A DNA stretch of 64,000 bases, from contig NZ_NEVQ01000012.1 in assembly GCF_002261185.1 (NCBI RefSeq), positions 62,001-126,000 of the forward strand. The letters are read 5' to 3'. A program made the translations under genes and the position numbers. Under the pieces are notes generated by a model, which was given only the letters and a program-made list of their open reading frames with translations, had not been told where the DNA came from and searched no databases. The stretch is from Bordetella genomosp. 4. GTDB taxonomy: Bacteria > Pseudomonadota > Gammaproteobacteria > Burkholderiales > Burkholderiaceae_B. Below, in pieces: positions 18,047 through 47,071 of the stretch (positions are counted from its first letter, which is position 1; each line of letters opens with the position of its first letter).

Positions 18047-19669
18047 GTGAACGCCCCTATTTCCGCTGCTTGGCCCGTCCCGGTTAGCGTGGCGCCGGAC
18101 GCGCTGGCAGATATCCAAGCCGACTTCTCGCGAGAGTGGCTGCGTATTTGCGACGAGGCGCAGCGTGGCGTCCTGGCGCCGCCTGCCGACCGGCGTTTTC
18201 GTGGCGCAGCGTGGGCCGCCAGCCGCCAGCATCTGTTGATGGCGCATGCGTATTTGCTATCGGCGCGGGTGCTCTCGCGTATGGTCGATGCCGCACAGGT
18301 GGGCGAGCCGCTGCGCAACCGGCTGCGGTTTTCCATCATGCAATGGGTCGATGCGCTGTCGCCGTCGAATTTCCTGGCTTTCAACCCTGACGCACAACAG
18401 TCGATCATTGACACGGCGGGTCAGGCATTGCGTGACGGCCTGGCCAATCTGGCCAATGACCTGCGTAAAGGCCGCATCAGCCAGACTGACGACAGCCAAT
18501 TCGAAATCGGCCGCAATGTGGCGACGACGCCGGGCCAGGTCGTATTCCAGAATCCGTTGTTCCAGTTGATCCAATACACACCGCAAACGGATACGGTCTA
18601 CGAGCGTCCGTTGGTGATCGTGCCGCCCAATATCAACAAGTTCTATATCCTGGACTTGCAGCCGGCCAACTCCTTTGTGCGCTATGCAGTTGCGCAGGGG
18701 CACACGGTGTTCATGGTGTCGTGGCGCAATCCGCTGTCGAGCGATACGGATGGCGTCGATCAGGCCACGTGGGCCGAGTATCTGGATAATGCGGTGCTCA
18801 AAGCCTTGCAGGTTGCCAGCGACATTTCTGGACAAGACCAAGTCAACGCATTGGGGTTTTGCGTCGGGGGCACGATGCTGGCATCGGCGTTGGCCCTGGC
18901 TCAGGCCCGCGGTGAGCATCCGGCCGCCTCGCTGACGCTATTGACCACGCTGCTCGACTTTCATGACACCGGCGTGCTGCAAGTGTTCGTCGACGAAGCG
19001 CATGCCATGCTAAGGGATCAGCAGATCGGCCAGGGCGGTCTGATGGCGGGCCGCGATCTGGCGACGACATTTTCGTTCCTGCGGCCCAACGAGCTCGTGT
19101 GGAATTATGTGGTGGGCAATTACCTGAAAGGGCAGACGCCGCCAGCATTCGATTTGTTGTTCTGGAACGGCGACAGCACCAACCTGCCCGGGCCTTTTTT
19201 CACGTGGTATTTCCGTAATACCTATCTGGAAAATAATCTCAAGGTGCCTGGGCGCGCCCGTGCCGGTGACGTCGCATTGGATCTGACGCGCTTGAAAATG
19301 CCGGCCTACTTGTACGGTTCGCGCGAAGATCACATTGTGCCGTGGACCTCTGCCTATGCATCAACGCAGTTGCTGCGCGGGCCGCTGCGTTTTGTGCTGG
19401 GGGCATCCGGCCATATCGCCGGTGTCATCAATCCGCCCGAGGCCGGCAAGCGCAATTACTGGGTCAGTGAGGATGCGGCCTTGCCAGGCGACCCCGGCGT
19501 ATGGTTTTCGCAAGCTACCGAGCGTGCCGGCAGTTGGTGGCCTGACTGGTCGCAGTGGTTGGCAGAGCATTCCGGCGCCAAGCGCCGCGCGCGTACCAAA
19601 GCCGGGAATGCCCGTTATGCGCCGATCGAACCGGCGCCAGGCAGTTACGTTAAAGTTCGAGCAACCTGA
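18047..19669 (+). CDS. phaC: Class I poly(3-hydroxyalkanoate) synthase PhaC
   Basis: The synthase has 540 residues from GTG 18047; an in-frame stop lies 13 bases upstream, so no longer start is possible. The lipase-like box GFCVGG holds the nucleophile C272. The catalytic Asp is in YGSREDHIVPW and the His in GASGHIAGV. It polymerises 3-hydroxyacyl-CoA on carbon-storage granules. It is shorter than the roughly 590 residues of Cupriavidus PhaC, mainly at the N-terminus. It leads the phaC-phaB-phaR cluster. Confidence 0.95.
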   Translation: MNAPISAAWPVPVSVAPDALADIQADFSREWLRICDEAQRGVLAPPADRRFRGAAWAASRQHLLMAHAYLLSARVLSRMVDAAQVGEPLRNRLRFSIMQWVDALSPSNFLAFNPDAQQSIIDTAGQALRDGLANLANDLRKGRISQTDDSQFEIGRNVATTPGQVVFQNPLFQLIQYTPQTDTVYERPLVIVPPNINKFYILDLQPANSFVRYAVAQGHTVFMVSWRNPLSSDTDGVDQATWAEYLDNAVLKALQVASDISGQDQVNALGFCVGGTMLASALALAQARGEHPAASLTLLTTLLDFHDTGVLQVFVDEAHAMLRDQQIGQGGLMAGRDLATTFSFLRPNELVWNYVVGNYLKGQTPPAFDLLFWNGDSTNLPGPFFTWYFRNTYLENNLKVPGRARAGDVALDLTRLKMPAYLYGSREDHIVPWTSAYASTQLLRGPLRFVLGASGHIAGVINPPEAGKRNYWVSEDAALPGDPGVWFSQATERAGSWWPDWSQWLAEHSGAKRRARTKAGNARYAPIEPAPGSYVKVRAT

Positions 19670-19818
19670 GGCCGCTTGACAGGTCCTTTTTGTTGGATGG
19701 GAGTGTTTTAGATCAACAGTGAGTATGCGCAGCAAGCAGTCGTTATTGAATAAGCAATCCGGCAGTATCAGTAGCAGGTAGTACGTTATTGAGGCGCTCA
19801 GTGCGCAGGAGGAAGGAT

Positions 19819-20556
19819 ATGAGCGGGAAACTGGCATACGTTACGGGCGGTATGGGCGGCATAGGCACGGCGATCTGCCGCCGATTGGCCAAGGACGGGT
19901 TTCGCGTAGTCGCCGGCTGCGGTCCAAGCCGCAACTATCAACAGTGGCTCGATGAGCAGGCTGCCCAGGGATTTACCTTCCATGCATCGGTCGGCAATGT
20001 ATCCGACTGGGATTCCACCGTGGCCGCGTTCGAGCGCGTGGCCAATGAATTGGGGCCTGTCGATGTGTTGGTCAACAACGCGGGGATTACCCGCGATGGC
20101 TTGTTCCGCAAAATGTCCGCCGATGATTGGCGTGCGGTGATCGACACCAATCTGAACAGCTTGTTCAATGTGACCAAGCAGGTCATCGAAGGCATGGTCG
20201 AGCGTCAGTGGGGCCGTATCATCAACATCAGTTCGGTCAATGGGCAGAAAGGGCAGTTTGGGCAAACCAATTACTCCACGGCCAAAGCCGGTATTCACGG
20301 CTTTACGATGGCTCTGGCCCAAGAAGTCGCCAGCAAAGGCGTGACGGTCAATACGATCTCGCCCGGATATATCGGTACGGATATGGTGCGTGCCATCCGC
20401 CCGGATGTGCTGGAGAAAATCGTCGCGACGATCCCGGTACGCCGTCTCGGAACCCCCGAAGAAATCGCTTCGATGACGTCATGGCTGGCTTCAGATGAAT
20501 CTGGTTTTTCGACGGGCGCTGATTTTTCGCTCAATGGCGGCCTGCACATGGGCTGA
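19819..20556 (+). CDS. phaB: Acetoacetyl-CoA reductase PhaB
   Basis: This 245-residue short-chain dehydrogenase starts at ATG 19819 after AGGAGGAAGG. It shows the cofactor motif TGGMGGIG, NNAGITRD, and the catalytic Ser (NISSVNGQKG), Tyr152 and Lys156 (NYSTAK). The GQFGQTNYSTAKAG stretch is typical of PhaB rather than FabG. It reduces acetoacetyl-CoA to (R)-3-hydroxybutyryl-CoA with NADPH for PhaC. No phaA thiolase is in this cluster. Confidence 0.94.
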   Translation: MSGKLAYVTGGMGGIGTAICRRLAKDGFRVVAGCGPSRNYQQWLDEQAAQGFTFHASVGNVSDWDSTVAAFERVANELGPVDVLVNNAGITRDGLFRKMSADDWRAVIDTNLNSLFNVTKQVIEGMVERQWGRIINISSVNGQKGQFGQTNYSTAKAGIHGFTMALAQEVASKGVTVNTISPGYIGTDMVRAIRPDVLEKIVATIPVRRLGTPEEIASMTSWLASDESGFSTGADFSLNGGLHMG

Positions 20557-20647
20557 TGAGAGACGAGCCGGAAAGCATGTGCAGGCGTTCCGGCTTACAC
20601 TAGGAATACTTCAAAGCTAAAGAGATCGCCCGATCTCGGGGACAACC

Positions 20648-21211
20648 ATGACGCAAGCTCAAACTGGCGCCGGTCAGCGCCTGATTAAAAAGTACCCCAA
20701 TCGTCGTTTGTACGACACCCAGACGAGTACCTACATTACGCTGGCGGACGTCAAACAACTGGTGTTGGCGAACGAGGAATTTCAGGTGGTCGACGCCAAG
20801 AGCGGCGACGACTTGACGCGCAGCATCCTGCTGCAGATCATCCTCGAAGAAGAAAGCGGCGGCATGCCGATGTTTTCCTCGAACATGCTGTCGCAGATCA
20901 TTCGTTTCTACGGCCACGCCATGCAAGGCATCATGGGCTCGTACCTGGAAAAGAACATCCAGGCGTTCATGGAGATTCAGCAGCGCATGGCAGAGCAGTC
21001 CAAAGGTCTGTATGGCAGCCAATTCGGCCCGGAAGCCTGGGCGCAATTCATGAACGTGCAGACGCCGATGCTGCAGAACATGATGAACAACTATATTGAT
21101 CAAAGCAAAAATCTGTTCGTGCAGATGCAGGATCAAATGCAAGACCAGACGCGTGCGATGTTCTCTTCGTTTCCGTTTACGCCGGGCGGCGGCCAGAGCG
21201 GCCGCAAGTAA
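20648..21211 (+). CDS. phaR: Polyhydroxyalkanoate synthesis repressor PhaR
   Basis: This 187-residue protein opens with the PHB/PHA accumulation regulator DNA-binding domain (LIKKYPNRRLYDTQTSTYIT), then LILEEES-type segments and a Gln/Met-rich coiled tail (MQDQMQDQTRAMFSSFPF). PhaR binds both PHA granules and the phasin promoter, and leaves DNA when granules form. The start ATG 20648 follows a weak ribosome site. A strong hairpin ends the cluster. Confidence 0.93.
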   Translation: MTQAQTGAGQRLIKKYPNRRLYDTQTSTYITLADVKQLVLANEEFQVVDAKSGDDLTRSILLQIILEEESGGMPMFSSNMLSQIIRFYGHAMQGIMGSYLEKNIQAFMEIQQRMAEQSKGLYGSQFGPEAWAQFMNVQTPMLQNMMNNYIDQSKNLFVQMQDQMQDQTRAMFSSFPFTPGGGQSGRK

Positions 21212-21270: not shown

Positions 21271-21621
21271 CTATTTCTTTTCAGCTTTACTGGGATCGAC
21301 CTTGATGTCGTTCTGCACTTGCTTGACGCCTTCGACATCACGCGCGACCCGGGCGGCCTGCTCGACCTCTGCCTCGGTGCCTACGGTACCGCTGAGCACC
21401 ACCGTGCCATCAGTAGTCTCGACGGCAATGTCCAGCGCGCTGAGCGTCGAGTCGGCGACCAGTGCGCCTTTGACCTTGGTCGTGATGACCGTATCCGACG
21501 CGTATTCGCTAACAGACTGTTTGTTGGTATCGGCCTCGGCGGCATGAACGGTCGTACCCACGGCGCCGAACATGGCACCGGCACCGACGGCCGTGGCAAT
21601 GATCAGTTTACGCATGTTCAT
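21271..21621 (-). CDS. BON domain-containing periplasmic protein (OsmY-like)
   Basis: The product has 116 residues with a Sec signal (MNMRKLIIATAVGAGAMFGAVGTTVHAAEA) and one BON domain (about 42-108: VITTKVKGALVADSTLSAL, then VVLSGTVGTEAEVEQAARVARDVEGVKQVQNDI). BON proteins are thought to bind phospholipid surfaces and are often osmotically or RpoS induced. The next two genes on the same strand (DUF1328, CsbD) are also stress-type, so this is a small stress cluster. Confidence 0.88.
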   Translation of the reverse strand: MNMRKLIIATAVGAGAMFGAVGTTVHAAEADTNKQSVSEYASDTVITTKVKGALVADSTLSALDIAVETTDGTVVLSGTVGTEAEVEQAARVARDVEGVKQVQNDIKVDPSKAEKK

Positions 21622-21692
21622 AGAAATACTCCTTCTACATAGCGATGAGTGGCATCGGGGGGAGAGCGCGGCCTACTGTGGCCGCGCAGGGT

Positions 21693-21857
21693 CTATTTCT
21701 TTCTGAGCACGCCGCTCAGTATGGATAGCACCGCCAGAATCAAAAACACGAAGAACAGAATCTTGGCAATGCCGGCAGCGCCAGCGGCAATACCGCCAAA
21801 GCCCAAGACAGCGGCGATGATAGCAATCACGAAGAACACGGCAGCGTAATACAGCAT
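21693..21857 (-). CDS. DUF1328 family small membrane protein
   Basis: This 54-residue gene encodes [20 protein letters not shown], then [19 protein letters not shown] and a C-terminal VLRKK. It has two hydrophobic helices and is a textbook YtjA/DUF1328 protein. GAGGAG lies before the ATG. The function is unknown; family members sit in the inner membrane and often accompany CsbD and BON genes, as here. Confidence 0.88.
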
Positions 21858-21888
21858 TTTGGATTCTCCTCGAAGTGCAATTAGCCCA

Positions 21889-22089
21889 TTAGCGGTTGGC
21901 GTCGAAAAACGTGCGGACTTCCTTTTCGGCTTCTTCCTTGGTCTTGCCGTAACGTTCCTGGATCAAACCGCTCAGCCGTTCAGCATTGCCTTCGACGCGC
22001 GTCAATTCGTCGTCGGTCAGTTCGCCCCAGGCCGCTTTGGCTTTACCGGTCAGTTGTTTCCACTTGCCTGCAACGATATCGTTGTTCAT
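21889..22089 (-). CDS. CsbD family stress-response protein
   Basis: This 66-residue protein begins [20 protein letters not shown] and carries the CsbD core [20 protein letters not shown], then a charged helix. CsbD-like proteins are abundant, small, soluble and induced in the general stress response; no biochemical role is established. The ATG at 22087-22089 is chosen because the family starts with MN(x)D and GGAGGATCACT precedes it. Confidence 0.9.
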
Positions 22090-22174
22090 AGTGATCCTCC
22101 GGGTTGATGAGCGTGTTACCACCCTACGAGCGACCTGGGGGGCCTGTCAAACGATGCTGTTGGTAAATGTAAAT

Positions 22175-22247: not shown

Positions 22248-24839
22248 TTATGCGGTTTTGACGGATGAATGTAACGAAATTCTGCGCTGAAGATGCGCCA
22301 GTGCCTCATCGACCTGATCCACCAGCACCAGGCACAAATCCCCCTGTGACAAGCGATCCAGCGCAGTGTCGATCGCCAGAAATTCGCCATGGATTTCTTG
22401 CACATGGCGGGTGCGGCGTGCAGCGCTCAAACCCTCGCGCAATAGCGCCAGGACTTCGCCATCGGCCCGGCCGCGCTGACATTGATCCTCATACAGCACG
22501 ACATCGTCGAAGGCATCGCCCAGGATGGTGGTCTGCAACCGCAGATCTTCATCCCGCCGGTCCCCGGCGCCGCTGATCACCACGCTGCGCCGTCGAGCCG
22601 GCATGGCCTCGATCGCTCGTACCAGCGCCTGGATCGCATCAGGATTATGGCCATAGTCGGCGATGACAGTTGCGCCTTTGTAGTCGAACACATTAAAGCG
22701 GCCGGGGACGGTCATCGCATCACTGACAAAGGTCGCGAGTCCCGAACGTATGACGGCCCAATCGATGCCGAGAGACCACGCGGCGGCTATTGCAGCCATG
22801 GCGTTATCCACCTGAAATCCGATGCTGCCTTTACGCGTCAGAGGAATATCGCTGAGCGAAATCTTGATTTCGCTATCGTTCTGCGCCGCGACGATGACCG
22901 GACCGTCACGGTACACCACGCGGTGCCCTTGAGCGCGATGCGTGCCGATCAAGGGATGCGTCGGGTCATCGGAAAAATACACGACCGTCCCGGGACATGC
23001 GATCGCCATGTTGGCGACAGCAGGATCAGTGGCATTCAGTACGGCAGCACCACCCGCATGCACGTATTGCACAATCACGCGTTTGACGACCGCCAGATCT
23101 TCTACAGTACTGATGTAGCCCAGCCCCAAATGGTCGCCCATGCCCAGATTGGTCACGATGGCGACGTCACAGCGGTCAAAAGCCAGACCCTCGCGCAAAA
23201 TGCCGCCACGCGCGGTTTCGAATACGGCCGCATCGACATCGGGATGAGCCAGGATACGGCGCGCGCTGCGAGGGCCGCTGCAGTCTCCCGTATCGATGCA
23301 GCGCGAGCCCACATAGACTCCATCCGAATTGGTCATGCCGACGCGATGGCCCGCTTTGGCGAGCAGGTGTGCCGTCAATCGCACCGTCGTCGTCTTGCCG
23401 TTGGTGCCAGCCACTGCCACGACGGGAATGCGGCCGTTATCGCCATCGGCAAACATGCTGGAAATAATCGCTTCACCGACTGCGCGGCCTTTGCCGAACG
23501 AGGGATTCAAGTGCATGCGCAGACCCGGCGCCGCATTGACCTCGACGACACCCCCGTGCTGTTCCTCAAGCGGCAGGTGCACGGTCTCTGCAACCACGTC
23601 TACGCCGCAAATATCCAGCCCTATCATGCGCGCTGCCGTCACGGCGCGGGCCGCCAATTCCGGATGGACTTCGTCGGTCACATCCGTTGCCGATCCCCCT
23701 GTGCTGAGATTGGCGTTATGGCGCAAGGTGATCAAGGTGCCGGCGGGAGGAATCGAATCGGCGTCATAACCCTGGTTTTGCAGCGTGGCCAACGCGATGT
23801 CGTCAAAACGGATTTTCGTCAATGAGGTGGCATGACCATCGCCGCGTAACGGATCGGCGTTCACTTGCTCGACCAGTTGACGGATGGTGTGGCGTCCGTC
23901 GCCTGTCACTTGAGGCGGATCGCGGCGGGCCGCAGCGACCAGACTATCTCCCACCACGAGTAATCGAAAATCGTGGCCGGGTATGTAGCGTTCGACAATG
24001 ACTTCGTCGCTGATAGCGGCGGCGACTTCATACGCTGCAATGACCTGTTCGCGGCTCTCGATATTGACAGCAACGCCGCGCCCTTGGCTGCCGTCCCGAG
24101 GCTTGACCACGACCGGGCCGCCGAGCTCCTGTGCTGCTTGCCACGCGGATTCCGCGTCGGAGACAGAATGCCCTCGGGGTACGGGGACGCCCGCCGCATG
24201 CAGCAGCATTTTGGTCAGGTCTTTGTCTTGCGCGATAGATTCTGCGATGGCGCTGGTCGCGTCGGTCTCGGCAGCCTGAATGCGGCGTTGCCGGCTGCCC
24301 CAGCCGAATTGCACCATACTGCCTTGAGTCAGCCGGCGAAAGGGAATACTGCGCGCCAGCGCGGCATTGACAATAGAGCCCGTGCTGGGCCCCAGCCGTA
24401 CGTCTTCGTCCAGTTCATGCAGCTCGGCCAGCACCGCCTGCACATCAAACGGCGAGCCGGACAGTACCGCCTGCAGCAGTTGCGTGGCTGCCTCCATGGC
24501 GCGCCGCCCCACGTCTTCTTCACTGTACTCGACGACAACCTGGAATACGCCTGGTTCGATCGTGGCAGCTGTGCGCCCGAACGTCACCGGGCACCCGGCA
24601 TGGGCTTGCAGAGCCAATGCGGTATCTTGCAAAACGTGAGCGATAGAGAGTGCACCCTGATGGCCATCGGGACGCAGCCGGCCTATCTGCGGAAATCGGG
24701 CACGCAGATCAGCTTCGAAATTTGGCAAATGCTCATCGATGGCGCACTCAGCATCGTCGCAGGTAACGATGGCTTCGATAGCAGTATTGCGGCTCCACAA
24801 ATTAGGGCCGCGCAGGGCGCGAATACGGGAAACTTCCAT
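22248..24839 (-). CDS. cphA: Cyanophycin synthetase, canonical type
   Basis: The protein has 863 residues with three parts. The N-terminal domain begins ALRGPNLWSRNTAIEAIV. The ATP-grasp domain at about 220-475 has KPRDGSQGRGVAV and ATDVTDEVHPELA. The Mur-ligase-like domain from about 490 has the P-loop GTNGKTTTVRLTAHLL, then VFETARGGILREGLAFD and ADYGHNPDAIQAL. All canonical motifs are kept. The enzyme adds Asp and Arg in turn to make multi-L-arginyl-poly-L-aspartate, a cytoplasmic nitrogen store. It is the second gene of a two-gene transcript, 30 bases after its divergent paralogue. No cyanophycinase gene is in the window. Confidence 0.93.
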   Translation of the reverse strand: MEVSRIRALRGPNLWSRNTAIEAIVTCDDAECAIDEHLPNFEADLRARFPQIGRLRPDGHQGALSIAHVLQDTALALQAHAGCPVTFGRTAATIEPGVFQVVVEYSEEDVGRRAMEAATQLLQAVLSGSPFDVQAVLAELHELDEDVRLGPSTGSIVNAALARSIPFRRLTQGSMVQFGWGSRQRRIQAAETDATSAIAESIAQDKDLTKMLLHAAGVPVPRGHSVSDAESAWQAAQELGGPVVVKPRDGSQGRGVAVNIESREQVIAAYEVAAAISDEVIVERYIPGHDFRLLVVGDSLVAAARRDPPQVTGDGRHTIRQLVEQVNADPLRGDGHATSLTKIRFDDIALATLQNQGYDADSIPPAGTLITLRHNANLSTGGSATDVTDEVHPELAARAVTAARMIGLDICGVDVVAETVHLPLEEQHGGVVEVNAAPGLRMHLNPSFGKGRAVGEAIISSMFADGDNGRIPVVAVAGTNGKTTTVRLTAHLLAKAGHRVGMTNSDGVYVGSRCIDTGDCSGPRSARRILAHPDVDAAVFETARGGILREGLAFDRCDVAIVTNLGMGDHLGLGYISTVEDLAVVKRVIVQYVHAGGAAVLNATDPAVANMAIACPGTVVYFSDDPTHPLIGTHRAQGHRVVYRDGPVIVAAQNDSEIKISLSDIPLTRKGSIGFQVDNAMAAIAAAWSLGIDWAVIRSGLATFVSDAMTVPGRFNVFDYKGATVIADYGHNPDAIQALVRAIEAMPARRRSVVISGAGDRRDEDLRLQTTILGDAFDDVVLYEDQCQRGRADGEVLALLREGLSAARRTRHVQEIHGEFLAIDTALDRLSQGDLCLVLVDQVDEALAHLQRRISLHSSVKTA

Positions 24840-24869: not shown

Positions 24870-27494
24870 CTATTGTTGGATCCAGTGGCGCACGCGATCG
24901 ACGGTGGGACCGGAGTAGCTTTCGTCGGATTGCAGCAGAACAAAGTCGCCAGACTGAATTGCATTCAGCACCTGATCAATGGCGCGAGCGTGATCTGGTT
25001 CTTCTTCGATCCTGATGGTTTTAGAGAGCTCCAGCGCGGCTTGCGCCAGCCCCTGGCGCAACAGCGCACGCCCCTCTCCGGCTGGCCGGCGGCTATTCAC
25101 CGTAGCGTCGTCATACAGCACCACGTGATCAAACGCCTGGGCGAGCAGACGCCCCTGTTCGATGAGATCGGCATCGCGGCGGTCTGCGCCGGCGGCATAG
25201 ACCGCGCAACGCCGCTCAGCAGGAAAATTCGCCACGGCGTCGAGCAATGCTTGCAATCCCGACACGTTGTGGACATCATCCACCACCACTGTGGCGCCTG
25301 CGCGTTTGAACATCGTGAATTGCCACAGCGCATCCGCTTGGCCGACGTCAAATGCCTCGATACCCGCGCGGATGATGGATTCAGGAATACCCAACGCCCA
25401 CGCTGTTCCCACCGCTGCCAGCACGTTTTCGATCTGAAAGCCAACGCGGCCGCCATGCGTGAGCGGAATGTCTGCCACGCGTGCCAGCAGAGTTTCATTC
25501 TGCCCCGCAGCGAGCACAATATTGCCGTCCTTCACGAAGACAGCGCGATTTCCTTGCTCTAAGTGTGCCCGCAACACCGTCAGAGCGGCATCAGGGCTGA
25601 AAAACAGCACCTCGCCGTCGCACAGCGGTGCCATCTCTGCGACCAGCGGATCTTGTGCGTTCAGGACGGCGACGCCCGTGGGAAGCACCACGTCGACTTG
25701 CGTGCGAAACACATTGGCCAGACGCTCAGTGTCCTGAATATCGAAATCGCCCAAATGATCGCCCTGGGCGATGTTGGTCACGACGCCCACCTGGCAGCGG
25801 TCATAAGCAAGCCCCTGCCCAAGTATTACCGCGCTGTCGTTCTCTATCACTGCGGCTTCGGTGCGGCGGTTCATCAGCAGCCGCCGGGCGCTTTCCCAAT
25901 TCGCGCAGTCGCCGGTCTGCACTTGCTGAGGGCCCATATAAAGCCCCTCGCTGCACGCTAAACCTGTTTGCCGGCCGGATAGGGACAGCAGGCGAGCCAC
26001 TAATCGCGCCACCACGGTTTTTCCGTTGGTGCCCGTGATGCCGACAACAGGAATACGGCCATCGTCGTTCTCCGGGAACAGGTGATCGACAATGGCTCGG
26101 CCGACAGGACGCGGCGTCCCGTCGGCAGGCCTCAGGTGCATGAGCAGGCCGGGGCCGGCGTTGACTTCGACGATGGCGCCGCGCTGTTCCTCCAAGGGTT
26201 TTGATATGTCCTCGGCGACTAGATCCACGCCTGCAATATCCAGCCCGACAATTTTGCTGGCCAGCACCACGGTGTGCGCCGTGTCGGGATGCACCCGGTC
26301 GGTGACATCAAAGGCCACATTGCCGCTGCGCTGGATCAGGACGCGCCTGCCGTGTTCGGCAATGCTGTCGGCCGACAGCGATTGTCGCTTCAATTCCAGG
26401 CGGGCGGCAGAGTCCAGACGCACCTTGTTCAGCGGATGGTTTTCGGTGCGGCCGCGTCTAGGGTCTGTATTGAGCTGCAGCTCAACCAGTTCGGCGATGG
26501 TGTGCTGTCCGTCGCCGGTAACCCAGGCCGGTTCTCCCGCTGCGGCCGCAACCAGGCGGTCTCCCACGACCAGCAGGCGGTGCTCGTTGCCCTGTACAAA
26601 ACGTTCCACGATGACGCCGCTGCCTTCGTCTACGGCGACAGAGTAGGCGGACAAGACCTCGGCTTCGGTGGTCAAGTTGGTGAAAACCCCACGGCCATGG
26701 TTGCCGTCGCAGGGTTTGACCACTACGGGCAGGCCGATGTCCTGGGCGGCTTCCCAGGCGGCTTCCGGAGAGTCGACTTCACGGCCTTCAGGCACGGGCA
26801 CGCCGCATTCGGACAGCAGGGATTTGGTCAGGTTCTTGTCTCGCGAGATGCCTTCGGCGATCGCGCTGGTGCGGTCCGTCTCGGCTGTCCAGATGCGCCG
26901 CTGGCGGTTGCCATAGCCGAACTGGACCAGATTGCCTTCGAATAACCTGATGCAAGGAATATCGCGATCGTCGGCGGCGTCTACGATACAGGCGGTGCTG
27001 GGACCCAGGCAGTGCGTATCGACCAGGTCATGCAACCTCGTTACCGCGCGCTCAACGTCAAAATCATGGTCTTTGATGGCGGCCAATACCAGGGCTCGCG
27101 CCTCGTCCAGGGCCGCCCGCGTGACTTGTTCTTGCCAGGCTCGCACCACGACTTTATAGACTCCGCGCCGCGAGGTCTCCCGCGCTTTGCCGAAGCCCCC
27201 CGGCAGACCAGCCAGCGTTTGCAGTTCGAGCGTCACGTGTTCCAGGATATGGCCGGTCCAGGTGCCTTCGCGCAGACGTTGCAAAAAACCGCCCCGTACG
27301 CCGGGGCTGCAGCGATGCTCGATCAAACCCGGCAGCCAGGCAGAGAGCCGCTCGTAAAACCCGGGAATCAGATTCGACGGATAGTCCTCGAGGGCGCCAA
27401 TATCCACCCAGGCTTCAAGAACCGGGCGGTAAGTCCAAATGTTCGGGCCGCGCAAAGCCACGACATCGAGAAATTCAATGTCTTTATCGTTCAT
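24870..27494 (-). CDS. Cyanophycin synthetase paralogue with divergent Mur-ligase domain
   Basis: The protein has 874 residues from the ATG at 27492-27494; no good ribosome site is visible. The overall architecture matches the paralogue downstream. The ATP-grasp half is well kept (KPCDGNHGRGVF, IVEVNAGPGLLMHL) and the P-loop GTNGKTVVARLVARLL is present. However, the ETARGGIL segment reads ENDSAVIL, the DYxHNPD segment reads VDDVHNVSG, and NLSTGG(T/S)ATDVTD reads NVAFDVTD. These are ligase-site positions in canonical CphA, so the second half may have altered or lost activity. Such pairs (cphA and cphA') are known in Cupriavidus and Bordetella. It may instead act as a partner subunit. Confidence 0.88.
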   Translation of the reverse strand: MNDKDIEFLDVVALRGPNIWTYRPVLEAWVDIGALEDYPSNLIPGFYERLSAWLPGLIEHRCSPGVRGGFLQRLREGTWTGHILEHVTLELQTLAGLPGGFGKARETSRRGVYKVVVRAWQEQVTRAALDEARALVLAAIKDHDFDVERAVTRLHDLVDTHCLGPSTACIVDAADDRDIPCIRLFEGNLVQFGYGNRQRRIWTAETDRTSAIAEGISRDKNLTKSLLSECGVPVPEGREVDSPEAAWEAAQDIGLPVVVKPCDGNHGRGVFTNLTTEAEVLSAYSVAVDEGSGVIVERFVQGNEHRLLVVGDRLVAAAAGEPAWVTGDGQHTIAELVELQLNTDPRRGRTENHPLNKVRLDSAARLELKRQSLSADSIAEHGRRVLIQRSGNVAFDVTDRVHPDTAHTVVLASKIVGLDIAGVDLVAEDISKPLEEQRGAIVEVNAGPGLLMHLRPADGTPRPVGRAIVDHLFPENDDGRIPVVGITGTNGKTVVARLVARLLSLSGRQTGLACSEGLYMGPQQVQTGDCANWESARRLLMNRRTEAAVIENDSAVILGQGLAYDRCQVGVVTNIAQGDHLGDFDIQDTERLANVFRTQVDVVLPTGVAVLNAQDPLVAEMAPLCDGEVLFFSPDAALTVLRAHLEQGNRAVFVKDGNIVLAAGQNETLLARVADIPLTHGGRVGFQIENVLAAVGTAWALGIPESIIRAGIEAFDVGQADALWQFTMFKRAGATVVVDDVHNVSGLQALLDAVANFPAERRCAVYAAGADRRDADLIEQGRLLAQAFDHVVLYDDATVNSRRPAGEGRALLRQGLAQAALELSKTIRIEEEPDHARAIDQVLNAIQSGDFVLLQSDESYSGPTVDRVRHWIQQ

Positions 27495-27711
27495 GGTCGA
27501 GGAGGGGGGATGAGCGTCGGCGGACAGGAAACCCCACAATGTGGCGGGGATGTCGTGCAGAATGCGAAGCCGAAGCCTGGGCTGGGATGATTCCTAGTAG
27601 TGGAAATTGATAAATCCGGCTGCTACTATACGCCGCCTTTTTCCGCCGATAAACTCGTGCTGTTGTAAGGAAGGGACAGGCCGCCCTCCCGGCCTCGCCG
27701 GACCGCCATTC

Positions 27712-29970
27712 ATGAAAAACAAGCCGCCCTTTTTGGGCATCTCCGGGCAGCCTCACGCTGCCCTGTACGACGCAATGCAGTCCCGCCTTGCGCCCGGCGA
27801 AGCCATTCTGGCCTGCTTGGAAACCGACCTGGATACCCGGCTGCGTTTCCGCCCTGGCCTGGTTGTATTGACCAATCAACGATTGCTGGCGAAATCCCCC
27901 GACCATGAGCAGTGGCGCGAATGGGGACTGACGTCGGCGTTGCGGTTGAGCTTGCATGATCATGCGGGTGCTGCGGTCTTGTCGCTGAATGAGGGCGATG
28001 TGGGGCTAGCGGTTTGGTGCTTTACGCTGGCAAATAATTCCGCAGCGTTGCGTTTACTTGCAAAGTTCGAGGCACGGCAACACAGCGCCGCGCTTGACGA
28101 CAAGCCACGCTGTTCAGGGTGTGGTCAGCCTTTGCCTGCAGAGGATGCCGAGTGCCAGACTTGCGCACCGGCCGTCGAGCCGCCCACGTCGACCTGGGCG
28201 CTATTGCGTCTATGGCGTTTTGCAAAGCCCTATCGCGCGGCGCTGATCGCCGGATTCATATTGACCTTGCTCGCGACGGCAGCCACGCTTGTTCCGCCAT
28301 ATCTGACGATGCCCTTAATGGATGACGTGCTGATTCCGTTTCAGAACGGCACGCCGATCGATCATGGCCTGGTGCGTTGGTATCTCGGAGGCTTGCTGCT
28401 GTCGGCAGTATTGGCGTGGGGCTTGGGGTGGGCGCGCACATATATTCTGGCGTGGGTGAGCGAGCGTATCGGCGCCGATCTGCGCACCACGACCTACGAG
28501 CATTTGCAGCAACTCTCGTTGCAGTATTTCGGCGGCAAACGTACCGGAGATCTGATGTCCCGCATCGGCAGCGAGACGGATCGCATCTGTGTTTTCCTGT
28601 CCTTGCATCTGTTGGATTTCGCGACCGATGTGTTGATGATCGCCATGACGGCGGCCATCCTGGTGTCGATCAATCCCTGGTTGGCGCTCGTTACGCTAGC
28701 GCCGTTGCCCTTCATTATCTGGATGATCCATGCGGTGCGCGACCGGCTGCGTCATGGCTTCGAGAAAGTCGATCGCATCTGGGCGGAGATCACCAACGTG
28801 CTCGCCGATACGATTCCCGGTATACGCGTGGTCAAGGCCTTTGCCCAGGAAAAGCGCGAGGTACAGCGTTTCCGGCAGGCGAATAATCGCAACCTCGAGG
28901 TCAACGATCGCGTCAATAGTTTGTGGTCCTTGTTCTCGCCTACCGTCACGCTGTTGACGGAAATCGGCTTGCTCATCGTGTGGGTGTTCGGCATTTGGCA
29001 AGTCGCCAACAAACAGATCACGGTGGGGGTGCTGGCGGCATTCCTGGCCTATATCGGTCGTTTCTATACGCGGCTCGATTCGATGAGCCGCATCGTATCC
29101 GTCACACAGAAAGCCGCCGCTGGCGCCAAACGGATTTTCGATATTCTCGATCACGTGTCCAGCGTTCCTGAGCCTGCCGTTCCTGCGCGGCTGGAGCGGC
29201 TGGACGGCCGTATCGAGCTGCGCAATGTGGCGTTCCGCTATGGCAATCGCTCGGTGATCCGAGGCCTCAATCTCAGTATCGAGCCTGGGGAAATGATCGG
29301 GTTGGTAGGCCACAGCGGGTCGGGAAAAAGCACCCTGATCAACTTGATCTGCCGTTTTTACGATGTGTCCGAGGGCGCCATTCTGGTAGGTGACACCGAT
29401 ATCCGTTTGCTGCGCATTGCGGATTATCGGCGCAACATCGGTCTCGTATTGCAAGAGCCGTTTCTGTTCTTTGGCTCCATTGCTGAAAACATTGCCTACG
29501 GTAAACCGGAAGCGACACGCGACGAGATTGTTGCCGCGGCGCGCGCGGCGCATGCGCATGATTTCATCTTGCGCCTGCCGCATGGTTATGACTCTCTGGT
29601 GGGCGAGCGTGGCCAGGCGCTTTCAGGTGGCGAGCGTCAACGGATTTCCATCGCGCGGGCATTGTTGATTGATCCTCGTGTGTTGATTCTGGACGAGGCA
29701 ACATCTTCGGTCGATACGACGACAGAAAAGGAAATCCAGAAGGCTCTGGATAACCTGGTTCGCGGACGGACGACGATTGCGATCGCACACCGTCTCAGTA
29801 CCCTGCGCCGTGCGGATCGTCTGGTGGTGTTGGATCACGGCAGCATCATCGAACAGGGCGGGCATGAGGAGCTGATGGCCCGCAAGGGGGCGTACTATCG
29901 GCTGTATCAGGCCCAGGCGCGCACCAACGAAAACGACCTGCTTTCAGAGGACGACGATGAACAATACTAA
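27712..29970 (+). CDS. Cyanophycin-locus ABC transporter (fused permease/ATPase) with N-terminal PH-like domain and zinc ribbon
   Basis: The protein has 752 residues. Residues about 25-125 resemble a bacterial PH/YokE-like domain (LVVLTNQRLLAKSPDHEQW). Residues about 130-150 form a zinc ribbon (CSGCGQPLPAEDAECQTC). A six-helix ABC exporter membrane domain follows at about 165-470. The ATPase domain has Walker A GHSGSGKSTL, signature LSGGERQRISIARALL and Walker B VLILDEATSSVD. It is divergent from the two cyanophycin synthetase genes and overlaps a DUF1854 gene by 14 bases. This transporter/DUF1854 pair is a recognised companion of betaproteobacterial cyanophycin genes, but its substrate is unknown. 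There is no C39 peptidase domain. Confidence 0.9.
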   Translation: MKNKPPFLGISGQPHAALYDAMQSRLAPGEAILACLETDLDTRLRFRPGLVVLTNQRLLAKSPDHEQWREWGLTSALRLSLHDHAGAAVLSLNEGDVGLAVWCFTLANNSAALRLLAKFEARQHSAALDDKPRCSGCGQPLPAEDAECQTCAPAVEPPTSTWALLRLWRFAKPYRAALIAGFILTLLATAATLVPPYLTMPLMDDVLIPFQNGTPIDHGLVRWYLGGLLLSAVLAWGLGWARTYILAWVSERIGADLRTTTYEHLQQLSLQYFGGKRTGDLMSRIGSETDRICVFLSLHLLDFATDVLMIAMTAAILVSINPWLALVTLAPLPFIIWMIHAVRDRLRHGFEKVDRIWAEITNVLADTIPGIRVVKAFAQEKREVQRFRQANNRNLEVNDRVNSLWSLFSPTVTLLTEIGLLIVWVFGIWQVANKQITVGVLAAFLAYIGRFYTRLDSMSRIVSVTQKAAAGAKRIFDILDHVSSVPEPAVPARLERLDGRIELRNVAFRYGNRSVIRGLNLSIEPGEMIGLVGHSGSGKSTLINLICRFYDVSEGAILVGDTDIRLLRIADYRRNIGLVLQEPFLFFGSIAENIAYGKPEATRDEIVAAARAAHAHDFILRLPHGYDSLVGERGQALSGGERQRISIARALLIDPRVLILDEATSSVDTTTEKEIQKALDNLVRGRTTIAIAHRLSTLRRADRLVVLDHGSIIEQGGHEELMARKGAYYRLYQAQARTNENDLLSEDDDEQY

Positions 29971-30433
29971 GCCGGCGTTTTCCTTGCGTCTCAATGTCTC
30001 AGGCCGCTGGGTATACGTATCGTCGGAGGGTCAAACACACGAGGATGTTCAGGTGGTGAGGGCGTTTCCGATCAGCGATCCTCTGCATGGCATCTCCATT
30101 GTGAGTGCGGACGGATATGAACTGCTGTGGCTGGACACGTTGGATGACCTGCCTCGCGAGACGCAGCAGCAGGTAAATGATGCCTTGGCGAGTCGCGAGT
30201 TCATGCCGGAGATTCTGCGTATTAACGCGGTGTCCACCTACGCCACGCCCTCCGTCTGGGACGTTCAGACAGATAGAGGCGATACCTCGTTCACACTGAA
30301 GGGCGAAGAGGACATCCGCCGCCTGGTTGGTCAGACCCTCTTGATTGACGATAGCCACGGCATTCATTATCTGATTCGCGATGTGGCGGCGTTGGATAAA
30401 CACAGCCGGCGCTTGCTGGATCACTTTCTGTAA
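29957..30433 (+). CDS. DUF1854 family protein of the cyanophycin locus
   Basis: This 158-residue soluble protein has the family pattern GISIVSADGYELLWLDTLDDLP, then a SVWDVQTDRGDTSFTLKGEEDIR segment and a closing LLIDDSHGIHYLIRDVAALD. The start overlaps the end of the ABC transporter gene by 14 bases, so the two are coupled and probably work together. The family has no assigned activity. The DxHGIxYxIxD ending may be a ligand site; that is a guess from conservation as remembered. The next gene converges on it with no gap. Confidence 0.88.
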   Translation: MNNTKPAFSLRLNVSGRWVYVSSEGQTHEDVQVVRAFPISDPLHGISIVSADGYELLWLDTLDDLPRETQQQVNDALASREFMPEILRINAVSTYATPSVWDVQTDRGDTSFTLKGEEDIRRLVGQTLLIDDSHGIHYLIRDVAALDKHSRRLLDHFL

Positions 30434-31567
30434 TCAGGGCACGCGCCGAAATGGTGTGTGGGCTTCCAGTTCGCCCAGGTATCCATCCACCGCCTGTGTC
30501 TCGCGTTCCAGAAAATCCTCGATCGCTGCGGCGAATCTGGCATCGGCAATCCAATGCGCCGACCAGGTAGACGTGGGCAGCAGACCGCGCGCCATCTTGT
30601 GCTCGCCTTGCGCGCCCCCTTCGAAACTGGCCAGCCCATGTTGAATACAGTAGTCGATGGACTGTAAATAGCAGGTCTCGAAATGCAGGCCCGAGACGAA
30701 TTCCAGCGATCCCCAATAACGCCCATAGAGCGTATCGCCGCCACGCATGTTCAAGGCTGCGGCGATAGGTTGCCCGTCTCGTAACGCCACAATCAACACC
30801 ATGGCATTCGGCATCTCGCGATGCAGGCGTTCAAAAAACTCTGCGCTCAGATAGGGCGCATTGCCGTGCGCGAAATAGGTCTGCTCATAGCAACGATAGA
30901 AAAAGGCCAAGGACTGCGGATCGATTTGCGTGCCATGCAGCCAGCGATATTCGATGCCTGCCTCAAGGACCTTTTTGCGATCCTGGCGGATTTTTTTTCG
31001 TTTGTCGTGATTCAAGGCCGCCAGAAAATCATCGAGATGCGCGTATCCCGCATTGCGCCAATGAAACTGCACGCCTTCGCGCACCATATAGCCGCCCTCA
31101 CGCAACGCGAGTAAATCGTCTTTTTCGGGGAACAGCAGGTGCAGCGAAGAGACCTTCAATCCTTGCGCCAATTCGATCAAGCCCTGCGCCAGGATAAGGC
31201 GGTCTTCTGCGTTGCCGGCCAGTAGCCGCGGTCCGCTGACCGGTGTAAACGGGATCGAACTCAACAGCTTCGGGTAATAGCGCAAACCATGCCGCTCAAA
31301 CGCATCGGCCCAGGCGTAATCAAAAACGTACTCGCCACGTGAATGGGATTTCAAATAGAGCGGTACGCCACCGACCACGCGCTCGTCGCGGCGCAACACC
31401 AGGTAGTATGGTGCCCAACCTGTATCGGGGGAGGCGCAGCCCGTCTCGTGCAGGGCCGACAGAAACTCGTGGCGCACAAAGGGTTGGTCGCCCGCCAACG
31501 CGTTCCATTCGGACGGGTCTATGTCGGATAACGAGGCGGCGATGCCGAGGCGGGCGGGAGAGGTCAT
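30434..31567 (-). CDS. FemAB-like GNAT acyltransferase (DUF482 / PF04339 family)
   Basis: The protein has 377 residues from the ATG at 31565-31567 (MTSPARLGIAASLSDIDPSEWNAL). Family marks include FVRHEFLSALHETGCASPDTGW, FDYAWADAFERHGLRYYPKLL and SAHWIADARFAAAIEDFLERE. Proteins of this family have a double GNAT fold related to FemAB enzymes, which add amino acids from aminoacyl-tRNA to peptides. The target here is unknown. Because FemAB-like enzymes make peptide-type bonds and the neighbours make a branched polypeptide, a link to cyanophycin is possible but not shown. Its stop directly abuts the end of the converging DUF1854 gene. Confidence 0.85.
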   Translation of the reverse strand: MTSPARLGIAASLSDIDPSEWNALAGDQPFVRHEFLSALHETGCASPDTGWAPYYLVLRRDERVVGGVPLYLKSHSRGEYVFDYAWADAFERHGLRYYPKLLSSIPFTPVSGPRLLAGNAEDRLILAQGLIELAQGLKVSSLHLLFPEKDDLLALREGGYMVREGVQFHWRNAGYAHLDDFLAALNHDKRKKIRQDRKKVLEAGIEYRWLHGTQIDPQSLAFFYRCYEQTYFAHGNAPYLSAEFFERLHREMPNAMVLIVALRDGQPIAAALNMRGGDTLYGRYWGSLEFVSGLHFETCYLQSIDYCIQHGLASFEGGAQGEHKMARGLLPTSTWSAHWIADARFAAAIEDFLERETQAVDGYLGELEAHTPFRRVP

Positions 31568-31673
31568 GACGTAATGATAAAGTCTGGCCGGCGACTTGCC
31601 GCAGTCCGGGATGCCGGCATTGTGGTTACTATGGAGCACACCGATTGCAAAGTGACGATTTTCTCGTTTTTGT

Positions 31674-32492
31674 ATGACCGATACTGTGATTTCCGCCTCG
31701 ATCAACACCGATTTGCGTAGCCAGGCGCTGTCAGCCTTGGCCGCGCGGACCTGGCCAGATAAATTGGCTGCCGTCCGGGCTATCTGCGACGATGCTGAGC
31801 TGATCCCCGATGTGGTGTTGGAAGAGCCTGCCAATTTGCCCGGACGCCCCGACGCACCTGAGCTCGTACCGCCTCAACAGGTCAAGCAGCGTTCTGTGCA
31901 GTCTCCAGAGGGGCGCGCCGTGTTGTTGCATGCGCTCGCGCATATTGAATTCAATGCGGTGAATCTGGCGCTGGATGCGGTGTGGCGTTACCCGGGCATG
32001 CCCGAGGATTTCTATCGCGACTGGCTGCGAGTCGCGCGTGAGGAGGCCTATCATTTCGACCTGCTCAATACGCATCTAGGCACGCTGGGCCACGTCTACG
32101 GCGATTTTCCCGCGCACAACGGGCTATGGGAAATGGCAGAGAAAACCCGTGACGATCTGCTGGCCCGTCTGGCGCTGGTGCCGCGTACTCTCGAGGCCCG
32201 CGGCCTGGATGCCTCACCGCTCATTCGCGACAAGCTGATCAGTGCAGGGGACAAGGACGGCGGCGCGATTCTGGACATCATCCTGCGCGACGAGATCGGG
32301 CACGTGGCAATTGGGAATCACTGGTTTCGCTATCTGTGCGATCAGCAGGGGCTGGACCCTGTGGCCTGCTATGCGGAGCTGGCGCAACGTTATAGCGCCC
32401 CAAAGCTGCGCGGGCCATTCAATCTCGAGGCGCGCCGGTTAGCGGGGTTTGACGAAGCCGAGCTGGCGGCGTTGCAAGGGACTGTTCGCTAA
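31674..32492 (+). CDS. DUF455 family ferritin-like protein
   Basis: This 272-residue all-helical protein has carboxylate/histidine motifs spaced as in diiron ferritin-like enzymes: HALAHIEFNAVNLALD, AREEAYHFDLL and LRDEIGHVAIGNHW. The DUF455 family is related to tRNA hydroxylase MiaE and to para-aminobenzoate oxygenase-like proteins, but its substrate is not established. It is divergent from the FemAB-like gene with a 106-base gap, and its stop overlaps the stop of the convergent LysR gene. Confidence 0.85.
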   Translation: MTDTVISASINTDLRSQALSALAARTWPDKLAAVRAICDDAELIPDVVLEEPANLPGRPDAPELVPPQQVKQRSVQSPEGRAVLLHALAHIEFNAVNLALDAVWRYPGMPEDFYRDWLRVAREEAYHFDLLNTHLGTLGHVYGDFPAHNGLWEMAEKTRDDLLARLALVPRTLEARGLDASPLIRDKLISAGDKDGGAILDIILRDEIGHVAIGNHWFRYLCDQQGLDPVACYAELAQRYSAPKLRGPFNLEARRLAGFDEAELAALQGTVR

Positions 32493-45766: not shown

Positions 45767-47071
45767 GGCTCTACCCCGTAAACGGGGGATGGGCATTCAT
45801 CAGACTCGGTTAATCACACCGTTCCAACCGCACTGAGCCAAGACTCTCATGCGGTAATTCTCAAAATTTCTGAACCCAAACGCCCGGCGTGAGAGCATCT
45901 CCATCTTCGTATGGAATCCCTCGGTGATCCCGTTGGACTTGGTGAAACGCCACATTCGTACGATCGGCTCCAGCCACGATAGTAACGTCGCGGCCAGCGC
46001 CTTGGCCGGACTTTGCTCGAACTGCCGGATCAACGCCAGGAATTTGGGTAGCATTTTCTGGGAGCGTTCGGCCTTCAGGCTCTTCAGGACTAAAAAGCCG
46101 TTGAGCTGCTGCTTGGCAAAATACAGCGCCTGCAGCACCGGCATCTGTGCCAGGTACTGGTGCAGGTTTTCCTTCTGCAGGGCGGTCAGTTTCCAGTGAT
46201 GGCGGCGCATCAGGCTTAATAGTCCACGGTTTCTGCGACCGTCGGGATCGTGCTGTTGCCACAGCTTGAGGAAATGGTGATTCACCAGCCGAATGACGTG
46301 GAAACGGTCAGCCACAATCATGGCATTGGGGAAGTACCGTTGGGCAATTCGGCGATAGGTCTCGGACAAATCCATGACGATGACCCGCACGTGTTCCTTG
46401 CCCGGCAAACGCTGCAAATAGCGATGCAGACTGTCTTCTGAGCGCCCCAGCACGACATCAAAGACCTTATGGTTCTTTAAATCCACCAGCGTCGTGGCGT
46501 AGCCCTTTTTACGACTGAAAAAGTGTTCATCGATCCCCAGCACCTGTGGGCAAGCCCGGCTCGAGAGCTCTGAGACGCGCTGCCTCACAAACGATTGATA
46601 CCAGCGCTCGACCGTCGCACTGCCGATCCGGTGCGTGACCGTCAGCTTGCGTTGACTAACGCCACCCTCGTGGGCCTCAAATACCTCCAGCCGATAAGCC
46701 TCGGTGGCCCGAAGCCGAGGGCGAATCCCAGAAAATCGATGCCGGAAATAGCGATGGCAGTCAGTACAGTGGTACTTGGGCACGCTCAGGTGCAACACCA
46801 TCAACTGATTACCCTGACGAGTGTGTTTAACGGTGCGCCGATGCGTGGCCTTAATGCGCAATCCGTCGTGCGAACAATACTCGCACACCGGCCGCTTCGC
46901 CGGCCTGGCCCAGACGTGAATGTCTCGGCGCCTCTCGACCCGCTGAACTACTAAATCCCGCAACCCTAAGATAGAATCGACTGGGGACATCGGCATTGCC
47001 TCCATTAAACCTGTTTCTTCGCAAAAACAAGTCTAATGAATGTCGGTGTCCCCCGTTAATGATGTAGAGCC
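45767..47071 (-). mobile_element. ISL3-family insertion sequence
   Basis: The 1305-bp element is bounded by imperfect inverted repeats that both begin GGCTCTAC and share AACGGGGGA and CATTCAT further in. It encodes one transposase. The family normally makes an 8-base target duplication, but the flanks here (TTTTTGTC on the left, GATTTTCT on the right) do not match. The left end abuts the ssrA terminator and the right end cuts the integrase gene, so an IS-linked deletion probably removed what lay between. Confidence 0.85.
45800..47005 (-). CDS. ISL3-family transposase (IS1001-type)
   Basis: This 401-residue transposase has an N-terminal zinc-binding part (CEYC and CTDC, about residues 42-86), a helix-turn-helix (GGVSQRKLTVTHRIGSATVERW) and the DDE domain with GIDEHFFSRKKGYATTLVDL, VIVMDLSETYRRIAQRYFPNA and a final SNGITEGFHTKMEML (E). 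It is full length with all catalytic acids visible, so it may be active. It is flanked by the element ends at 45767 and 47071. Confidence 0.92.
   Translation of the reverse strand: MEAMPMSPVDSILGLRDLVVQRVERRRDIHVWARPAKRPVCEYCSHDGLRIKATHRRTVKHTRQGNQLMVLHLSVPKYHCTDCHRYFRHRFSGIRPRLRATEAYRLEVFEAHEGGVSQRKLTVTHRIGSATVERWYQSFVRQRVSELSSRACPQVLGIDEHFFSRKKGYATTLVDLKNHKVFDVVLGRSEDSLHRYLQRLPGKEHVRVIVMDLSETYRRIAQRYFPNAMIVADRFHVIRLVNHHFLKLWQQHDPDGRRNRGLLSLMRRHHWKLTALQKENLHQYLAQMPVLQALYFAKQQLNGFLVLKSLKAERSQKMLPKFLALIRQFEQSPAKALAATLLSWLEPIVRMWRFTKSNGITEGFHTKMEMLSRRAFGFRNFENYRMRVLAQCGWNGVINRV

Follow-up and report, generated by a model that had tools for sequence, protein, structure and literature searches.

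Four adjacent genes in the window (the whole 64,000-nucleotide stretch of Bordetella genomosp. 4 DNA that was analysed) may form one system, in which the Asp-Arg chain of a synthetase divided between two paralogues, CphA_a and CphA_b, would be moved out of the cytoplasm by an ABC exporter with a DUF1854 partner. We propose this tentatively, at somewhat short of an even chance; the complex, the cargo, the direction of transport and the role of DUF1854 are the parts that we infer. Export is suggested by the anatomy of the locus, the co-occurrence of its genes, the rarity or lack of linkage of cyanophycinase, the complementary loss of motifs in the synthetases and the complete ATPase motifs of the exporter. 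The missing cyanophycinase and the way in which the active-site motifs are shared out over the two synthetases go beyond the initial annotation of this DNA.

That annotation described an exporter with a PH-like front and a ribbon, overlapping a DUF1854 gene by 14 bases and facing the synthetase genes, and all of these features are present, with the overlap given by ORF coordinates (Table 1). A simple scan of positions 27450-27760 found no sigma-70-like promoter site. In 44 of 47 loci counted, the DUF1854 start overlaps the ABC stop or lies within 30 bases of it. Eighty of 83 loci with four separate frames have the divergent orientation and three are unidirectional (L082, L095, L096), as are the four genes in L121-L123.

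Table 1 Positions of the four genes and their parts in the window
Feature	Position	Strand	Basis
CphA_b, 863 aa, N motif gone, G/M sites present	22248..24839	-	Family model, alignment
CphA_a, 874 aa, N motif present, G/M-site residues gone	24870..27494	-	Family model, alignment
Divergent intergenic region, 217 bases	27495..27711	.	Between CphA_a and ABC exporter genes
ABC exporter, 752 aa, NF052233	27712..29970	+	Family model; ATPase motifs identical in 79/79 rows
Predicted PH-like N-terminal domain, ~residues 31-130	27802..28101	+	Model and fold comparison
CxxC...CxxC ribbon, residues 134-151	28111..28164	+	Sequence, alignment
Transmembrane region PF00664, residues 178-451	28243..29064	+	Pfam match, alignment
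ATP-binding domain PF00005, residues 517-665	29260..29706	+	Pfam match, alignment
DUF1854 protein, 158 aa, NF052234/PF08909	29957..30433	+	Family models

The exporter scored 1382.8 bits against NF052233, the model for a cyanophycin metabolism-associated ABC transporter (residues 17-745, cut-off 880), and the DUF1854 protein scored 218.8 bits against NF052234 (cut-off 150) and 173.3 bits against PF08909 (cut-off 26.8). Both NF models, far exceeded here, name an association and state no mechanism, cargo or role. The association of both proteins with cyanophycin is thus already known through NCBIfam equivalog names, and the terms DUF1854/PF08909, NF052233, NF052234, CphA_assoc_ABC and 'cyanophycin metabolism-associated' are absent from the main texts of open-access PMC papers. 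The description of the system as uncharacterised holds for its function only; the association is in NCBIfam and, minus DUF1854, in the published account of a cphA cluster (PMC10687191). The exporter fell below the cut-offs of the MsbA model TIGR02203 (469.4 bits, cut-off 602) and of the HlyB type I secretion model TIGR01846 (428.1 bits, cut-off 725.55); its core would work in the manner of MsbA, yet it is not classed as MsbA.

Walker A, Q-loop, signature and H-loop are identical in all 79 aligned exporter rows, and the four ribbon cysteines are present in 77-78 of them. The N-terminus matched no Pfam family; the predicted model, by fold comparison, has a PH fold of seven strands and a C-terminal helix. 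Polar membrane residues are conserved in at least 95% of the 79 rows, including D302, D306, E417, R450 and R454, the last of which lies just past the PF00664 region. These five residues occur in 1, 3, 0, 2 and 1, respectively, of 16 other exporters (eight frames from six plasmid loci and eight from the window's genome), and are family-specific. A charged membrane pathway of this kind fits a charged cargo, for example Asp-Arg material, but is no proof of one. Fusion of the ABC and DUF1854 proteins was considered as proof of their contact and discarded: the sole in-frame case, a single 927-aa frame in draft Cupriavidus basilensis OR16 (L065, 7673-10453), has a junction resembling a frameshift in the ABC tail, and the long frames in L144-L147 proved on inspection not to be fusions.

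The two synthetases were aligned (86 CphA_a, 84 CphA_b and 12 comparison rows, namely 11 CphA and one Mur-ligase-like ORF) and residues were numbered by mapping R323, N394 and R458 of TeCphA1 onto the alignment. The N-domain motif Cx19HxxEH is complete in 86/86 CphA_a rows versus 0/84 CphA_b rows. In CphA_a, R323 is replaced by G in all 86 rows and R458 by L in 85 and M in one, N394 is retained in 84, and every row lacks five residues of the substrate loop (STGG and the next one) as well as the M-domain E.ARGG...K and DYxHN sets. CphA_b carries complete G- and M-site sets in 84/84 rows, including the aspartate-recognition residues R323 and R458. The incoming aspartate is recognised by R323, N394 and R458, and alanine mutants of these are reported as impaired (PMC9427784). 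Against TIGR02068 (cut-off 850), CphA_b scored 992.6 bits and has the CphA1 G- and M-site residues; CphA_a scored 891.3 bits, although none of its 86 rows has that full set. Just over half of the CphA_a relatives (45/85) are 710-767 aa long and without the Mur C-terminal region; the window copy is full length.

By motif, the two proteins are complementary in their active sites, a pattern in which loss need not mean inactivity. Loss of the N motif alone is not special to the four-gene system, because four classical CphAs are also without it: the motif is complete in 7 of the 11 comparison CphAs, and the remaining four belong to the classical clusters of two genomes (G298, G504), whose loci (L111, L112) hold two opposed CphAs and a cyanophycinase, both CphAs lacking the N motif and keeping their G/M sites. 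Two other readings of the paralogues were rejected. CphA_a is not CphA2-like, as it keeps the N motif (86/86), absent from cyanobacterial CphA2 according to PMC9262961, and has lost two aspartate-recognition residues; and the H267 to Q change in CphA_b is no sign of a dead G domain, as Q is also found in 4 of the 12 comparison rows. The CphA1 N domain is described as a slow endo-cyanophycinase that yields tetramers rather than dipeptides, makes primers and acts in trans (PMC9262961).

The synthetase and exporter pairs share nearly the same distribution. In an even sample of 249 Pseudomonadota genomes, 12 had DUF1854, exactly these 12 had the ABC family, and 14, the 12 among them, had CphA. In an even sample of 300 genomes of the window's order, searched with DUF1854 and CphA profiles, 102 genomes had DUF1854 and 114 had CphA at E 1e-100 (109 above the cut-off). 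All 102 DUF1854 genomes have CphA, and none of the 186 CphA-less genomes has DUF1854. Nine of the 12 genomes with CphA only, from two genera, have cyanophycinase, and the other three (G362, G375, G522) are assemblies 79-86% complete. Among 80 betaproteobacterial loci, which are the best-scoring of at least 559 and hence close relatives, DUF1854 is adjoined by the ABC gene in 79, and the locus also has CphA_a in 78 and CphA_b in 74; loci with missing partners stop at contig edges. With these samples, the co-occurrence of the four genes is near-perfect and the link to cyanophycin proposed in the initial annotation is strong.

Counting the CphAs listed, 90 of the 102 DUF1854 genomes have one no more than 20 kb from DUF1854; in the remaining 12, CphA is on another contig in six, of unlisted position in three and far away on the same contig in three. 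In these last (G385, G421, G442; L115-L120), the synthetase and exporter pairs are each intact, and that both pairs are kept although unlinked points to a common function. Three small genomes (G150, G202, G480; 1.3-1.9 Mb) spend about 0.5% of their length on DUF1854 and both synthetases; upkeep of these genes in genomes of this size suggests real use.

A composite transposon, as suggested in PMC10687191, is not supported as a general explanation by the gene content of the flanks, which differ by genus. On one side of the cluster lie BON-domain and CsbD-like genes (21271-22122) and on the other FemAB-like and DUF455 genes (30434-32492), and five flank genes of the window recur only in Bordetella and Achromobacter, in 15 or 16 of 91 loci each. 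When the flank ORFs were clustered all against all, many antisense frames were joined as well, and we read the largest clusters as the four genes with their shadow frames. PHB genes at 18047-21211, next to the cluster, encode a class I PHA synthase (TIGR01838), an acetoacetyl-CoA reductase (TIGR01829), which also recurs in four Pandoraea loci, and a regulator of PHB accumulation (PF05233/PF07879). An ISL3-family transposase (NF033550, 248.1 bits) is encoded at 45800-47005.

Cyanophycinase is rare where the exporter pair is present. The window's genome gave no match to the cyanophycinase model TIGR02069 at E <= 0.001, and in this it does not look like a storage system. Across the order, TIGR02069 was above the cut-off in 21/300 genomes, comprising 7/102 with DUF1854, 9/12 with CphA only and 5/186 with neither, counts that, like all the distribution counts here, are phylogenetically dependent (a Fisher test on them ignores phylogeny); with all matches at E <= 0.001 included, 13/102 DUF1854 genomes have one. 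Three of the seven (G298, G504, G533) hold a second, classical cphA cluster with adjoining cyanophycinase besides the DUF1854 system, and in the other four (G267, G310, G342, G450) the cyanophycinase lies over 180 kb away or on a different contig. Of the 99 DUF1854 genomes without a second classical cluster, four thus have cyanophycinase, and in none of these is it linked. In the phylum sample it was found in 0/12 pair genomes compared with 2/2 other CphA genomes. IaaA was found in 5/12 pair genomes, and IadA (TIGR01975) was above the cut-off in one of 20 genomes (G086), itself with cyanophycinase. In the classical clusters of six loci (L025, L107-L110, L114), cphA is accompanied by a second ORF of the Mur-ligase-like kind, about 570-650 aa long.

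That beta-proteobacteria with CphA rarely have a cyanophycinase had been noticed before. Beta-Proteobacteria account for 903 of 1614 complete genomes encoding CphA1, and a recognisable cyanophycinase was reported in only 2.8% of those 903, which its authors termed unanticipated, with IadA and/or IaaA in 70.9% of beta-proteobacterial CphA1 genomes (PMC10206079). The same gap is reported with a 2002 citation in PMC5178258 and remarked on in PMC5670224. New here is that the exporter pair occupies the same genomes.

A common occurrence of the exporter pair apart from cyanophycin genes, which would speak against the link, was not found in Pseudomonadota, but a related pair does lie on a replicon without CphA. 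Plasmid protein searches with the ABC and DUF1854 proteins returned one credible DUF1854 match outside the phylum, on plasmid 1 of Gemmatirosa kalamazoonensis (L026), where the ABC protein scored 624.9 bits against NF052233 (residues 19-748, cut-off 880) and the DUF1854 protein 73.6 bits against NF052234 (cut-off 150). The search of this 1.1 Mb replicon alone gave no CphA match. The gene order is as in the window and the NF052233 alignment is nearly end to end, and the N-terminus aligned weakly with the PH-like profile (hhalign probability 23, pairwise E 9e-4); the Gemmatirosa exporter differs in having no ribbon cysteines and, of the five charged residues, only D302. The DUF1854 model also matches Sulfolobus acidocaldarius. 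Because of these two cases, the module need not serve cyanophycin outside Pseudomonadota, and judging from these sequences the PH-like exporter with DUF1854 is probably an older module taken up by a cyanophycin system. G185, a metagenome-assembled genome of another class (93% complete, 8% contamination), carries the exporter pair at a contig edge, where its neighbour is a single undivided CphA that has the N, G and M motifs all together (L019, 6284-11782). This arrangement, which indicates that the split is not required, is perhaps the older state.

In the proposed system, CphA_b (N- G+ M+) would polymerise Asp and Arg, and CphA_a (N+ G- M-) would join it as a hetero-oligomer whose N-domain site cuts chains to give primers or short oligomers. 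The exporter would clear the product, either a soluble Asp-Arg oligomer or a chain still being made, from the cytoplasm; its PH-like and ribbon front and DUF1854 would probably serve for docking or gating at the cytosolic face, and export would replace breakdown by cyanophycinase. Several observations run against export. The flank sequences compared show no conserved outer-membrane or periplasmic partner, IadA/IaaA are found in many CphA genomes, as in a degrading cell, seven DUF1854 genomes have cyanophycinase as above, and the related Gemmatirosa pair sits on a CphA-free replicon. Furthermore, a split SuCphA1 heterodimer was somewhat less active without primer than a version with all sites on one protomer (PMC9262961), so no benefit of splitting is apparent.

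Other explanations share part of this evidence. The four genes could maintain a store with an overflow valve, the polymer being degraded by an unrecognised enzyme or the CphA_a N domain and the exporter venting beta-Asp-Arg, arginine or aspartate. We consider this unlikely but deserving of weight: unknown cyanophycinase isozymes have been suggested (PMC10206079), the endo-cyanophycinase motif is kept throughout CphA_a and isoaspartyl dipeptidases occur in part of the genomes, whereas the N-domain activity of CphA1 is slow and gives tetramers, not dipeptides, and one review reports no cyanophycin from the R. eutropha H16 genes when overexpressed at home or expressed in E. coli, another none in the wild type (PMC8560796, PMC11362209). 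Export of a dipeptide or other breakdown products, as in the initial annotation, is possible. The H16 reports are equally compatible with export, with a requirement for both subunits at once and with a different product; all four genes are present in two Cupriavidus necator strains (L038, L046) among the loci examined, which did not include H16. A different amino-acid polymer or peptide, made by the synthetase pair and secreted by the exporter, would account for those reports, and the Gemmatirosa pair indicates that the module can serve another product; R323, R458 and the M-site sets kept in every CphA_b row make this improbable.

The Gemmatirosa pair also favours a cargo unrelated to cyanophycin, with the exporter a mere long-standing neighbour of the synthetases. 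The all-or-none presence across 300 genomes, even where the pairs are unlinked, leaves this only a slight chance. The predicted PH-like N-terminus is the basis for the suggestion that the exporter and DUF1854 form a membrane tether, sensor or regulator of the synthetase or its granules and do not transport cyanophycin. As such a fold reveals no ligand, and the complete ATPase motifs and conserved charged membrane residues point to real transport, we give tethering, the second idea of the initial annotation, a very slight chance.

If the split-synthetase and export reading is carried to the class with most known cphA, cyanophycin-type material there would be an exported product and not a store, made by an obligate heteromeric synthetase and released by a dedicated ABC/DUF1854 exporter; this wider claim is possible but doubtful. 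Were it true, the cyanophycinase puzzle would largely dissolve, since little would be left to degrade inside, the lack of detectable cyanophycin from the H16 homologues could be explained, and the genes would be a lead to a biodegradable polyamide that cells secrete. The secreted Asp-Arg polypeptide could then feed bacteria that have cyanophycinase but lack a synthetase. Compatible with this is the genome-based prediction that cyanophycin, probably of Polynucleobacter and Oxalobacteraceae origin, is used by freshwater actinobacteria (PMC7527133). Should export prove wrong, the fixed division of active-site motifs over two paralogues would still stand as a concrete claim on betaproteobacterial cphA pairs that can be checked.

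Among known systems, MsbA and HlyB-type exporters have the TMD-NBD core in common with the window exporter, which adds the PH-like and ribbon front, the family-specific charged membrane residues and the DUF1854 partner. In the classical cphA1-cyanophycinase cluster, the polymerase has the same G/M sites as CphA_b; here, in contrast, cyanophycinase is absent or unlinked, and the system has in addition the exporter pair and a second CphA that looks mostly inactive. The Group 1 cphA cluster of activated-sludge bacteria also has two cphA, an ABC transporter and no cphB; the passages describing it (PMC10687191) mention neither DUF1854 nor the motif split, and flanking insertion sequences seem inconstant in the present loci. 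A close parallel for the synthetases is an engineered SuCphA1 heterodimer, N-G+M+/N+G-M-, in which three active sites are divided over two chains as in CphA_a/CphA_b (PMC9262961). That heterodimer is a laboratory construct of one enzyme, and the window, judged by its motifs, encodes a natural counterpart of it in two paralogues that we infer to be in contact.
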